From assembly GCF_002379095.1 (NCBI RefSeq), contig NZ_NBZV01000011.1, positions 1 to 64,000 on the forward strand: a stretch of 64,000 nucleotides of DNA. Direction: 5' to 3'. Source of the DNA: Polaromonas sp. AER18D-145 (lineage in GTDB: Bacteria; Pseudomonadota; Gammaproteobacteria; Burkholderiales; Burkholderiaceae_C). Position 1 is the stretch's first letter; every line of letters begins with the position of its first letter. Below are positions 1 through 10,906 of the stretch, piece by piece. The notes under the pieces were generated by a model that did no database searches, was not told where the DNA came from, and worked only from the letters and a program-made list of their open reading frames with translations. The position numbers and the translations under genes were made by a program.

Positions 1-151
1 CCTGGACGAGTTCGTCTTCCGCTTCAACCGCCGCACCTCCAGCTCTCGCGGGATGCTGTTCTACAGGCTGATGCAACAAGCCGTGGTCACCGATCCGGTG
101 ACCTACGCCGACATCGTGCTGCCCGCCGAAAAAGCCGCTGAAATGACCTAG
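1..151 (+). CDS. IS1595-family (ISXO2-like) transposase, C-terminal fragment
   Basis: Open from the left edge to a TAG at 149-151, giving 49 residues that begin LDEFVFRFNRR and continue RGMLFYRLMQQAV. This is the conserved C-terminal end of the DDE transposases of the IS1595 family (ISXO2-like domain). The catalytic part lies outside the window, so it is not possible to say whether the element is intact. It is followed directly by a probable terminal repeat and then by other mobile DNA, so this end of the window is an insertion hot spot. Family assignment is by recognition of the motif only. Confidence 0.75.
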   Translation, partial: LDEFVFRFNRRTSSSRGMLFYRLMQQAVVTDPVTYADIVLPAEKAAEMT

Positions 152-544: not shown

Positions 545-572
545 ATTTAACATAATATACATCGTGGAACAT
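545..572 (+). other. dif: dif-like Xer recombination site (left att of the IMEX)
   Basis: Bases 545-561 (ATTTAACATAATATACA) match 17 of 17 with the reverse complement of the Escherichia coli dif XerD arm plus the 6-bp central region. The XerD arm is 545-555 and the centre TATACA is 556-561. The other arm, 562-572 (TCGTGGAACAT), does not match the usual XerC arm (TTATGCGCACC). One perfect XerD arm with a divergent XerC arm is what is described for junctions formed by Xer-using elements such as TLC phage and the gonococcal genetic island. The site is therefore probably a hybrid of the chromosomal dif and the element's own attachment site. Confidence 0.8.
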
Positions 573-628
573 ACAATCAAGGTCCACAGCTCCCGCCCAA
601 AACCCGCCAAGCCCGTGAAACCCGCGCC

Positions 629-1216
629 ATGCTTAGCTCTCGCTTCAAAGTCCTGTGCGCTGACGCTGGCCTGTCCATCGACGAGGCCGCGAAGCTTCTT
701 CACGTCACGCCCCGGACCGTGCGGTACTGGTTTTCCGGGAAAGTCACGGTCCCGTATGCGGCCTACAAGCTGGTGCGGGTGCTGCGCTGGTTTGAGCTGC
801 CGGGGCCGGCGTGGCGCGGCTGGCACTTCCATAGCGGCAAGCTCTGGACGCCTGAGGGCCACGGATTCGAGCCTCACGACGCCAACTGGTGGTCCTTGCT
901 GGTCCGCCAGGCCCGTTCCTTCAGAACCATCTATGAGCGGGAATCAGCCATGCGCCAAGCCTTGCGGGCGGGACGGACAGACGCACCGGTCCGGCAGGCG
1001 GTGGCCGAAGGCTCGCCAGACGGCCGGGGCGAGCTGGTCGAGCCCACCGGCATGGCCGGTGGGGCGGCGCAGCCGCCCCGCTTAATTTATCTTAAGAACA
1101 CTACTGGACATAACACGTCAAACCGGGCCTCCACCATTGGGGAAACCTCCAAAACCATCGCATGGCAAATAGCCCACGGAATTCCACATCATGAAAAACA
1201 GGGGGTTTCGGTATGA
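629..1216 (+). CDS. xafT: VC1465/XafT-family Xer recombination activation factor
   Basis: The 195-residue product has an N-terminal helix-turn-helix region with the family signature: LSIDEAAKLLHVTPRTVRYW, then VPYAAYKLVRVL and a WRGW...LWTPEGHGFE stretch ending WWSLLVRQAR at about residue 92. This is the DUF3653 / VC1465 family. Its studied member XafT of the cholera satellite phage TLC activates XerD so that recombination at dif can occur without FtsK. The C-terminal half (from about residue 100) is low-complexity and probably disordered. The start at 629 leaves only a short distance from the dif-like site. The stop overlaps the next gene by ATGA. The function is inferred from the family and from the adjacent dif site; the match of gene and site makes it persuasive. 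Confidence 0.8.
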   Translation: MLSSRFKVLCADAGLSIDEAAKLLHVTPRTVRYWFSGKVTVPYAAYKLVRVLRWFELPGPAWRGWHFHSGKLWTPEGHGFEPHDANWWSLLVRQARSFRTIYERESAMRQALRAGRTDAPVRQAVAEGSPDGRGELVEPTGMAGGAAQPPRLIYLKNTTGHNTSNRASTIGETSKTIAWQIAHGIPHHEKQGVSV

Positions 1217-1413
1217 GTGGCCTGGCTGGCGTGGCGCCGGACGTTCTGGAAGAAACCCGTGGGGCCTGCGCCTGGCTGCATGGGATCGCGGTGGACTCAG
1301 AGTCGCTCGGGACGGCTCCTGAGGGCGTTGCGGACTGGCTGGAACGGCTCGGGATGGCCTGCGCTGCTCAGCTCCAGGCGACTGGCCACATGCCCAAAGG
1401 TGGCATCCAGTGA
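1213..1413 (+). CDS. small hypothetical protein of the IMEX
   Basis: A 66-residue protein whose ATG overlaps the stop of the xafT-like gene (ATGA), suggesting translational coupling. It has two Cys residues, a short acidic helical character (ETRGACAWLHGIAVDSES) and no recognisable domain or signal peptide. Small genes after the activation factor are common in Xer-dependent phages and islands. I do not recognise this one. Confidence 0.5.
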   Translation: MSGLAGVAPDVLEETRGACAWLHGIAVDSESLGTAPEGVADWLERLGMACAAQLQATGHMPKGGIQ

Positions 1414-1628
1414 CCGGCCCAGGGTATGGGGGCAGGCCCCCATGGGAGCAAAGCGAAACGGGTCCCGTCTTAAGGCTCAGGGCGCACATCGGATGTTTGG
1501 ACGCGGCTGCGGCTGTGCGCTTAAACCCGCCCTCCTTCGTGCCATGTCAAACCGGTAACTCAGTTACGAAAACCAGAACAACTTGCATTCTGGTGTGGAC
1601 AACTGCCAAAAAATTTAACTCAAAGTGA
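1410..1628 (+). CDS. doubtful small open frame after the IMEX gene pair
   Basis: A GTG start overlaps the previous stop (GTGA), giving 72 residues with no recognisable motif, a mixed basic character and a C-terminus rich in Lys and Thr. Its coding region contains a perfect palindrome at 1426-1443, which argues for a structural or replication role of the DNA rather than protein coding. It is listed because of the overlap arrangement only. Confidence 0.2.
   Translation: MTGPGYGGRPPWEQSETGPVLRLRAHIGCLDAAAAVRLNPPSFVPCQTGNSVTKTRTTCILVWTTAKKFNSK
1426..1443. repeat. perfect palindrome ATGGGGGC-AG-GCCCCCAT
   Basis: Two 8-bp arms are separated by 2 bp. The element's small genes end around here and no T run follows, so it is not a classical terminator. 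In small phage-like replicons such hairpins can be replication or packaging signals. That is inference. Confidence 0.5.
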
Positions 1629-1651
1629 AGAAATTTCCAATGAAATCAACA

Positions 1652-1679
1652 CCTTACAAAACTATACATCGTGGAATAT
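1652..1679 (+). other. second dif-like att site (right end of the IMEX)
   Basis: The centre TATACA at 1663-1668 is followed by TCGTGGAATAT, which matches the left site's arm at 10 of 11 positions, and the similarity continues for a few bases (ACAA). The preceding 11 bp match the XerD arm at only about 5 positions. This is consistent with the element's own degenerate XerD arm. The expected chromosomal XerC arm is absent, so a further element or a deletion may have followed. Confidence 0.6.
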
Positions 1680-1739: not shown

Positions 1740-2411
1740 TCACCATTTGCCGGTGGCTTGCCGCTTGCGCACGGCTGTCGCGATGATATCCATGGATTCA
1801 GTGCGGCTGACGCGCTGGGCAAAGCCGATGGCGGTCAGGCCTTGCTGGTTTTTCAGCAAGGGATCGGCGCCGGCGTCCAGCAGCAGTTTGACCGCGGGCG
1901 TGGTGCCGTATTGCGCGGCCATCATCAGCGGTGTGGTGCCGTTGGGTGATTCGGCGTCGATGTAGGCGTGGTTTTCCAGCAGCAGGTTCATGATGGCCAG
2001 GTGCCCCTTGCTGGCGGCGTAATGCAGCGGTGTCCAGCCGGTCTTGTTGACGTCGGCATCCCGCTTGATCAAAGCGGCCACCATTTCAAGCTGGCCCTTG
2101 ATCGCGGCCAGCATCAGCGGGCTTTCGCCATTGGCATTGAGCGCGTTGACGTTGGTTTTGGGCCAGTCCAGCAGGGCCTGGGCGGCCTTCAGCGATGGCT
2201 CCTGGATCGCCAGGTACAGGCCAGGCTGGCCTTTGGGGTCGACGGTGTTGGCATCAAAACCACGGGTCAGCAACTGGCGGATGACGCCCGGGTTGTCCTG
2301 CGTGATGGCTGCAAAAAAGTCTTCATACGAGCCGGCATTGACTGTAATAAACCCAGTAACGACAAATAGATAGACGATTTTTTTAAAGTGATTGATGAGG
2401 TATGTTTTCAT
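1740..2411 (-). CDS. exported ankyrin-repeat protein
   Basis: 223 residues. Residues 1-27 form a signal peptide (basic start, hydrophobic stretch [13 protein letters not shown]). The rest is ankyrin repeats, recognisable by [40 protein letters not shown] and [12 protein letters not shown], about five units to residue 200. Ankyrin repeats bind other proteins; the partner is unknown, and the location is probably periplasmic. It begins 4 bases into the end of the tatD-like gene and closes the mltG-to-tatD gene run. Confidence 0.85.
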
Positions 2412-8642: not shown

Positions 8643-10906
8643 AGCCGTGTCAGGTACGCAGCCGGAATTTTCTGCCGGGTCGCTTCCTTTTCCCTGGTCG
8701 CGTCGGGGCTGGCCGCCAGCGCTGCGCGGTAGGCCTCCAGCGCCAGGGCGTCGTTCTTCTTGTGTTCGGCGTAGATCCGTCCCAGCTCCAGCAACGCCTC
8801 CACTTGCCCCTCCGGCCAGCCCTGGTTGCGCAGAGTCAATCCGTTGATGGAAAGGTCGTAGTCCTGCGTGCGCAGGCCCAGGCTCACCGCGGCATTGACG
8901 AGGTTGTAGTCGTAGAAGCCTTCGTCCAGGTAGCGACGCGCCAGCTTCGCGGCTTCCGGTTCGCGTCCGGCATGGGCCAGCACCAGCAACTCCAGCCCAC
9001 GCACGGCCGGGGACTCTGGTTGCAGTTTCTTGCAGCGCTCCAGAAACTCCAGTGCCTTGGCGTGTTGGCCAAGCTGGGAATAACCGCGCACGAGATTGGA
9101 CAACATTGCCACCACATGCGGCCTGGACTCCACCACCGACTCCCAGATCCAGATTGCGTTGTCCCAGTCCCCCCAGCGCGCCAGATGGTCCGCGACCATG
9201 GGGGTGATCTTGCGGTAATGCGGGTTGATCCTGGTGCCCTCATCCATCAGAATCAGCATCTCGTTTTTGCTTTTATTCCAGCGCGGGTTCGTGGGGTCGC
9301 CGGACTGCGAGATCATGAGAGCCCGCTTGACGGCGGTGATGATCTTGTATTCACTCGCGGCTGCCTGCTGGCTGATATAGCCGGCAAGCATCAGGCAAAA
9401 AATGCTGGCAAAAAAGCCTGCCCGTGAAAATGCCGGCCGCCAGGGCAGTGGGCTGCTCCAGCCCCATCGGGACGCACCCCGCCGAGCATCGGAAGCGGCA
9501 AGCAGGGCCAGACCCGTGGCAAAAATGGCACCCGTCGACGCCAGCCGCCATGGAAAACCGGCGTTGCTGACCAGCAGCAGCGCCAGCAAACTGGTGAGCA
9601 AAATGGCGCGTGCCCCAGCATCGGAGGGGCCACCGGCTCTCCGGTCCTGAAATGTATCCCAAGCCGAGAGCAGCAGGTAGCCGAACAAGCCCATCAAGGT
9701 GATCCAGCCGACAAGGCCGTATTCGGCGATCAGCTGAAGGCTTTCGTTGTGTGCGTAGTAGTCGGTTTCCAGCGGCGAGTCTGCAGTCTGGTAAAGGGGG
9801 GAGTCGACTTCCCACGCCCCTGCCCCGACCCCGCTGAAAGGCCGGTCGGCAATCATGCGCCCTGTGGCCTTCCACATGATCAGTCGCACCGAGACAGAGC
9901 CCGTGGCAAACGCCTGCTCGTTACTGAGTTCGTGGGCCACCGAGGCACTGCGGTAGATGCTGCGTTCCAGAGCGTTGCTCCCGCGCTGTTCGCCCGCAAT
10001 GCTTGGGTTGCCGGTGTCGATCAGGCCGAGACCGACCACCGTGCCGAACAGAACCATGAGTGCCAGCGCACGCCAGACGGGGGACCAGCGCGAAAAATTG
10101 AACTGCCGACGGTAGATGAAACCGATCGCCGGCAAGACCATAAAGAGCATGAACCAAAAGGTGATGAGCGCCGAGCGGGTGCCGGTCATTAACAGGGCGA
10201 CCACGATAAAGCCTGTGCTGAAGGCCATCAGGACAATCTGCGACAGGCGCTGCGACTGGGCCAGAAGATAGACGGAAAACGGGATGGCGCACACCGCCAT
10301 TTCCGCGAAAAAATTACGGTTGGCAAAGGTCGAGGCGGGGTTGGGGCCTTGCGGAAAATAGCTGAAATTCACCCAGAACTGCAATGCTGTCCATAGCGAG
10401 GCCATGGCGGCTCCCCAGTGGATGCCCCGGGCCAGCAAGGGCAGCGCAGCCGGTGAAAACGTGTTCAACCCGAGCCACAGCAGCAGGCTGAAAACAAACC
10501 AGCGTATCGCCTCCACGCCGGCCAGATAGGTATGGGACCAGGCCATGCTGCCAAGGGCATAAGCCATCAGGATCAGCGGAAACCACATCAGGACATGCCA
10601 GCGCAAAGGCTGTTGGCGCTTGCGCTGGTGCCAGAAAAACAGCAGCGCTGCGGCCAGGGTCATCAGCGAAACCACCATCGATTTCAGGGTGTCCTGCACC
10701 ATTTCCTGAAAAGGAACGCCGATGGCCGGCACCAGAAACAGCATGGCCGCCAACACGGCGACCGCGGCGCCGCTCCGAACCTCACTGGTCGCCGGGGAAG
10801 TGATCGCTTGTCTGTGCGACAACGGTTGGTCCAGGGAAAGCAGCACATCGGCCCCCGCCGTGAGGGCGGCCGGTTTGCCGGTGGAAGCTCTCTTTTTCTT
10901 GGCCAT
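8639..10906 (-). CDS. O-antigen ligase / Wzy-family membrane protein with C-terminal helical repeats
   Basis: 755 residues. About ten or more membrane helices lie between residues 45 and 500. The large periplasmic loop of the Wzy_C fold is recognisable by RLIMWKATGRMIADRPFSGV, GAGAWEV and YAHNESLQLIAEYGLVGW. From about residue 540 there is a soluble TPR-like tail (GYSQLGQHAKALEFLERC, and others). Such proteins join or polymerise lipid-linked sugar chains, or act as pilin oligosaccharyltransferases. No glycan genes are nearby, so the substrate cannot be named. The Lys-rich start (MAKKKRAS) is cytoplasmic. Confidence 0.8.
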   Translation of the reverse strand: MAKKKRASTGKPAALTAGADVLLSLDQPLSHRQAITSPATSEVRSGAAVAVLAAMLFLVPAIGVPFQEMVQDTLKSMVVSLMTLAAALLFFWHQRKRQQPLRWHVLMWFPLILMAYALGSMAWSHTYLAGVEAIRWFVFSLLLWLGLNTFSPAALPLLARGIHWGAAMASLWTALQFWVNFSYFPQGPNPASTFANRNFFAEMAVCAIPFSVYLLAQSQRLSQIVLMAFSTGFIVVALLMTGTRSALITFWFMLFMVLPAIGFIYRRQFNFSRWSPVWRALALMVLFGTVVGLGLIDTGNPSIAGEQRGSNALERSIYRSASVAHELSNEQAFATGSVSVRLIMWKATGRMIADRPFSGVGAGAWEVDSPLYQTADSPLETDYYAHNESLQLIAEYGLVGWITLMGLFGYLLLSAWDTFQDRRAGGPSDAGARAILLTSLLALLLVSNAGFPWRLASTGAIFATGLALLAASDARRGASRWGWSSPLPWRPAFSRAGFFASIFCLMLAGYISQQAAASEYKIITAVKRALMISQSGDPTNPRWNKSKNEMLILMDEGTRINPHYRKITPMVADHLARWGDWDNAIWIWESVVESRPHVVAMLSNLVRGYSQLGQHAKALEFLERCKKLQPESPAVRGLELLVLAHAGREPEAAKLARRYLDEGFYDYNLVNAAVSLGLRTQDYDLSINGLTLRNQGWPEGQVEALLELGRIYAEHKKNDALALEAYRAALAASPDATREKEATRQKIPAAYLTRL

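Follow-up and report, generated by a model that had tools for sequence, protein, structure and literature searches.

A very small element at the dif site of Polaromonas looks like a stripped-down filamentous-phage satellite

Near the start of the window (the whole stretch of 64,000 nucleotides analysed here, which forms the start of a 97,947-bp contig in a 4.82-Mb draft of 135 contigs) a short segment with a gene of the Xer activation factor type lies between two dif-like sites, and this raises the question of what kind of element it is and how it could move. The first-pass annotation had described it as a minimal Xer-dependent element (IMEX). The Xer element measures 1107 bp (window 545-1679). 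Its left site at 545-572 reads ATTTAACATAA-TATACA-TCGTGGAACAT, and the reported match to the XerD arm plus centre of dif (17/17 at 545-561) was confirmed; by arithmetic, about 0.0006 such runs of 17 exact bases would be expected by chance on both strands of 4.82 Mb. The XerC arm, previously called divergent, is in fact the usual one for the genus, as the arm starts with TCGT in 27/27 same-genus sites besides the window's and with TCGT(G/A)GAA in 22 of these 27 (counted by eye). The second site at 1652-1679, CCTTACAAAAC-TATACA-TCGTGGAATAT, was also correctly annotated, having the same centre and a right arm identical at 10 of 11 positions. Its XerC arm and centre are dif-like and its XerD arm is degenerate, a pattern shared across the element family. 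Dif-like attachment sites are present at both ends of the element, at the chromosomal dif, the arrangement by which a TLC-type IMEX is recognized. A dif-like site was found in 28 of 37 same-genus genomes (source genome counted), always as a single one. The 18-mer ATTTAACATAATATACAT (XerD arm plus centre) has no second place at up to 3 mismatches in the 135-contig draft, so that a canonical dif elsewhere, which the annotation had named as an argument against itself, was not found there. A chance origin of the two sites was ruled out by the lack of other places for the 18-mer and by the same-genus sites.

The comparison with an element-free strain, which had also been proposed, is provided by the near relative G025. 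It has one dif, with a right flank 91% identical to that of the window over 1487 bp, and its left flank does not match that of the window element. Here the contig starts within the apparent end of an IS1595-type transposase (window 1-150, by eye), after which TGTTGACACTTTCATTTC occurs twice, near 342 and near 457, so the left flank of the element appears rearranged in comparison with its relatives. Regarding chromosomal position, the distance from dnaA to the dif or element is 47-54% of the large contig in G023, G036, G210, and G126, which is a terminus position only if those contigs are circular chromosomes; in G221 dnaA and the dif or element are on separate contigs. As the annotation had supposed, the window element is probably located in the replication terminus.

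The gene itself was assigned with two models. In agreement with the earlier assignment, the ORF at 629, starting 56 bp past the left site, exceeded the cut-offs of NCBIfam NF040522, 'VC1465 family Xer recombination activation factor' (98.8 bits; cut-off 70), and of Pfam DUF3653 (37.9 bits; cut-off 22.4). The ATG at 629 is internal to a longer frame and represents the first in-frame start codon of the integrated window copy (Table 1). Codons between core and domain are constrained (pS 0.38, pN 0.16 over seven element pairs; domain codons for comparison, pS 0.46, pN 0.10), and one pair of eight, G320-G242, presents no constraint upstream of the domain. A search for plasmid carriage of xafT gave no match. 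Capsid or assembly genes are absent from the ORF list and from the Pfam and PHROG results for the 1107-bp element, and the 66-aa ORF matched neither Pfam nor PHROG.

Table 1. Features of the window element and its right flank (window coordinates).
Feature	Position	Strand	Remarks
Left junction	545..572	+	dif XerD arm 545-555, centre 556-561, XerC arm 562-572
xafT body (VC1465 family)	557..1213	+	Frame open from dif core to stop 1214-1216
Origin-like segment	1083..1110	+	TAATTTAT..TTA.AGAACACT; in relatives (G028, G070a, and G061) this segment matches the intergenic region of an inovirus
Small ORF, 66 aa	1213..1413	+	Coding status uncertain
Hairpin	1424..1445	+	GTATGGGGG-CAGG-CCCCCATGG; putative packaging signal
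RBS and ATG	1627..1642	+	GAAGAA 1627-1632, ATG 1640-1642; same phase as xafT body across core
Right junction	1652..1679	+	Degenerate XerD arm 1652-1662, centre 1663-1668, chromosomal XerC arm 1669-1679
Chromosomal flank, 223-aa ORF	1740..2411	-	Ankyrin-repeat-like by eye; window 1714-3200 matches element-free G025

The frame of xafT is open from core to domain in each element. Just before the right core, a start codon preceded by a Shine-Dalgarno motif stands in phase with the xafT body in 32 of 36 copies (26/29 in one set, then 6/6 further copies). At these right ends the remaining two phases passed in 0/58 and 1/12 cases (together 1/70), and random positions in 4.6%. An ATG within 39 nt was searched for in the set of 29 and an ATG or GTG within 45 nt in the set of six; the right end of G368b and several centres were positioned by eye, and the 36 copies are not independent, as G032, L152, and L155 each give two copies with the same right end. 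Copies with one end only (the second copies of G070 and G320, G081, G490, G427, L151, L153, and L158), G094 (no dif), and L159 (frame not assigned between its sites) were excluded. The in-phase start occurs in all three phases (0, 1, and 2), depending on the lineage. The four failures are G264 without an ATG, G100 and G213 with an ATG and no Shine-Dalgarno sequence by the pattern used, and L172. The last one, from a class-level genome, has an XafT-like gene at dif and a ~930-bp repeat open throughout, with no start at the right end; it is an exception to the split-start rule and has perhaps found another solution.

The two kinds of junction differ accordingly. An upstream in-frame ATG precedes the left junction in only 1/24 first copies (the Ramlibacter copy, 113 nt off) and is present in 5/5 second copies of arrays. 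Moreover, a leader that spans attP (e.g., MKST....IHR) is the native N-terminus of 10 of the 120 relatives listed out of 392 found, and two others among those 120 read in from the dif side. The in-phase start at the right end, the native leaders, and the codon constraint indicate that the N-terminus of XafT is encoded across attP from the body. As far as can be read from sequence, xafT is split at attP, with its ribosome binding site and start on the right end of the element and its body on the left end; integration at dif removes the start, which later copies of an array retain. An internal start codon before the domain remains in 19/24 integrated first copies, including the ATG at 629 of the window (five have none), so translation may persist. 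We infer silencing of xafT by integration with the strongest case in G032, G100, G126, and L154. In addition, the leader KKCTLC of L132 (G368) resembles that of the Neisseria protein P0116, which suggests the same split arrangement in Neisseria.

This arrangement recurs in a whole family of elements. The VC1465 model scored over its cut-off in 8/87 genus genomes (10 copies) and in 17/397 family genomes, with G427 just below, leading to 31 distinct xafT copies (10 in the genus and 21 in 16 other family genomes). Thirty of the 31 occupy a dif-like site or directly follow a copy that does, and the sole genus copy of the xafT family away from such a site is found in L084 at 8800-9350 (G094). Both ends are visible in 26 copies, including that of a Ramlibacter MAG, with sizes from 860 to 2728 bp (median about 1.4 kb). 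Tandem pairs occur in 7/24 carrier genomes (G032, G070, G210, G277, G320, G368, and G467), and the tandem copies of G032 are identical to each other over 1317 bp. Some hosts have other centres (TGCACA, CACACA, and TACACA), alike at both ends. The largest element, that of G320 (2728 bp), encodes its own Rep (PF23343) and is a link between the small elements and TLC. In wider scans the model exceeded its cut-off in 3/397 phylum, 3/377 class, and 13/399 order genomes, counts that include genomes already met in narrower scans, and at the VC1465-family loci from the class and order scans dif adjoins the gene in only 2 of 18 cases; association with dif is therefore a feature of a subgroup. The same segment lying apart from dif in many genomes, which the annotation had offered as evidence against it, was thus not met within the genus and family, while outside them the gene usually stands without dif. 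One search of the protein database led to 392 XafT relatives, many of them on contigs of 1-2 kb; these were not counted as evidence of circles, because metagenome contigs are short anyway. Taken together, these data place the segment in a family of very small, putatively mobile elements at dif, the site of chromosome resolution in bacteria; they look like stripped-down satellites of filamentous phages, and their single clear gene straddles the attachment site.

The likeness to filamentous phages comes from DNA modules in common with inoviruses. In 15/20 elements a hairpin of the form ATGGGG(G)-loop-(C)CCCCAT precedes the right core by 140-298 nt, and within the genus the pattern occurs in 4/87 genomes, solely inside these elements. 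In the G032 element the region around the hairpin is 83% identical to window 1422-1468 (E-value = 2.5e-8); no DNA in common with phage records was found for the hairpin region of the window. Among 2.9 million viral contigs the pattern occurs in 8 and the reversed pattern in 11, so the hairpin count alone was dropped as evidence and only the content differs. A Zot relative is encoded by 7/8 contigs with the true pattern vs. 0/11 with the reversed one (the Zot queries were picked by eye from those same seven contigs, each contig being judged with the Zot of another; the match of L090 reaches only 9e-5). In the seven contigs zot is followed on its own strand by the hairpin, at a distance of about 10-230 bp, and in L094, L095, and L096 a dif-like site follows shortly in the same orientation. 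A stricter hairpin pattern matched one viral contig, found before, and its reverse none.

A 21-base flank pattern also matched a single viral contig, L162. This contig encodes Zot and Rep domains, and its terminal repeat of 127 bp suggests that the genome is circular. It carries a dif-like site with the XerC arm TCGTGGAAGA and shares 41 bp with the G070 element at 90% identity (half of this stretch is the search pattern itself) and an unselected 38 bp at 95% with the G032 element, just upstream of rep. More generally, when every element was compared by blastn with 20 inovirus sequences, 28 matches at E ≤ 1e-3 were obtained, with one match in the reversed inoviruses and one in other viral contigs as controls. 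These 28 sort into the hairpin and four origin-like types, located at the 5' end of rep (L092 and L094-L096; elements G277, G264, and G100), in the region behind zot (L093; G028, G070, and G061), upstream of rep (L162; G032), and between rep and the gene that follows it (L155; six xanthomonad-type elements and L160). The window element, unlike these relatives, has no inovirus match at E ≤ 1e-3. This includes its origin-like segment, which could be aligned only by eye and by local alignment with relatives whose matches to L093 have E-values from 1e-8 to 8e-4.

Inoviruses are also found as neighbours. Searching the viral contigs with an alignment of XafT proteins gave 11 loci, seven of them with a strong Zot match (E < 1e-30), and in both L152 and L155 two tandem elements come after an inovirus at a dif-like site. 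DNA in common between an element and the neighbouring prophage of the same viral contig is strong only in L155 (1e-8), weak in L160, and absent or at chance level in the others. Furthermore, in four phage records annotated as Inoviridae the XafT relative is an ordinary gene near zot.

In the light of these data, we consider it likely that the element is a filamentous-phage satellite of the TLC type, integrating through Xer and only ~1.1 kb long after reduction, whose integration cuts off its own Xer activator. The excised circle would carry attP (a good XerC arm and centre with a degenerate XerD arm) and the origin-like segment, from which the Rep of a helper would replicate it, and the phage-type hairpin may serve packaging. 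On the circle the start of xafT would lie upstream of attP and its body downstream, and the XafT so made would activate XerD at dif without FtsK and drive integration. The start would then be exchanged for the XerD arm of dif, leaving no start and usually an in-frame stop; stop codons in that arm (TTAACATAA) would help to close the frame. With its start replaced in this way, a single integrated copy would lose its main translation start and become locked in, while arrays or circles would keep it. Neither an excised circle nor a particle was observed; the tandem arrays and the element-free dif of G025 speak indirectly for Xer-dependent integration or excision. Excision, transfer, helper replication, packaging, and the expression switch are predictions, as distinct from the anatomy of the sites, the family, the split start, and the common modules, which can be followed in the sequences themselves. 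The best reading of the family members is that they are mostly Rep-less inovirus satellites. To a more general proposal we give about an even chance, namely that natural miniphages, down to ~0.9 kb, form a widespread family at dif and use Xer recombination as an on/off switch by having attP run through the 5' end of the activator gene. The circle would make the activator and integration would behead it, resulting in one-way integration with no excision or directionality factor. The putative helper origins differ between members, so these would track different inoviruses.

A helper is not always at hand. The 10 genomes of the Polaromonas set, eight of them carriers, yielded no Zot gene, and among the 16 other family carriers seven have one and nine have none, so a resident helper is often absent. 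This, and the lack of a direct inovirus match for the window copy, would suit a minimal Xer element transferred solely as naked DNA, through natural transformation and Xer integration, with no helper and with its phage modules as relics. We regard such an element as unlikely, because four origin-like types have been retained, each matching a different inovirus, the hairpin is kept in 15/20 elements, elements adjoin inovirus prophages in viral contigs, and G032 has exact tandem copies.

The satellite reading is also preferred to that of an immobile remnant left at dif by the decay of a larger filamentous prophage. Larger forms do exist (G320, 2728 bp with its own Rep), and the window element is a single copy with a left flank unlike its relatives; however, 26 copies have the same compact plan with both ends, tandem arrays occur, the reading frame is constrained, and start and phase are preserved, which makes decay quite improbable. 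Hardest to maintain, and disfavoured as very improbable, is a resident gene of the host beside dif, the second site then being a chance repeat. Most carriers in the family do have the gene at dif, but it exceeds the cut-off in only 8/87 genus genomes, dif is free of the element in G025, and arrays and both-ended copies are found. Of the first-pass annotation's reading as a minimal IMEX, the very small Xer-exploiting element at dif with an XafT-family gene stands; the split start and the phage modules had been missed.

Among known systems, the attP of TLC has an intact XerC arm and centre with a degenerate XerD arm and integrates XerD-first, independently of FtsK (PMC4246890; PMC5357621), and XafT assists this integration (PMC9765430). 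The TLC satellite phage of Vibrio cholerae resembles the present elements in its integration at dif, attP pattern, XafT-family activator, and lack of morphogenesis genes, but it has its own replication module, whereas most elements here, of 0.9-2 kb, show none. The gonococcal genomic island is likewise a Xer element in which XerC arm and centre are intact and the XerD arm is divergent, but it has 57 kb and type IV secretion genes. Arrays of the RS1 satellite and CTX phage are similar in that satellites and filamentous prophages are adjacent at dif, and CTX differs in integrating as a folded single strand via XerC. Both RS1 and CTX are larger than the elements reported here. A very small genome packaged with a helper is known from the M13 miniphage of 221 nt (PMC10480500). 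This laboratory construct is comparable as a tiny circle with an origin and a packaging signal, which in our elements are predicted from sequence, and differs in being engineered, without integration and without a gene. If the proposed mechanism holds, these are very small natural elements exploiting Xer, and one-way integration on a reversible host Xer machine is achieved by an attP placed through the element's own activator gene. The 392 protein relatives, many on contigs of 1-2 kb, point to a large number of filamentous-phage satellites that have so far gone unseen.

Searches of the open-licence literature listed no publication describing such elements or a split of xafT at attP. The nearest printed idea is the mycobacteriophage BPs, where attP is within the repressor gene and integration alters the product (PMC4557955). 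The likeness is an attP inside a regulatory gene, so that integration changes what is made; the difference is that the BPs repressor is truncated at its C-terminus and thereby activated, whereas here the start of a recombination activator would be removed. The VC1465 family may be split in another way in the Stenotrophomonas filamentous phages L137 (4911) and L138 (6437), in which a half dif site, GAACATAATATACA, lies in the ORF upstream of a DUF3653-half gene and is oriented opposite to that gene. Finally, a small ORF (M[AT][YFI]NLRLP..) was observed in another frame within the long C-terminal frame of xafT at 6026-6334 of L080 (G100). The G100 copy had no Pfam match, and similar small ORFs are located within the xafT C-terminal frame of G032, G264, G277b, G185, and G297, making overlapping genes possible.
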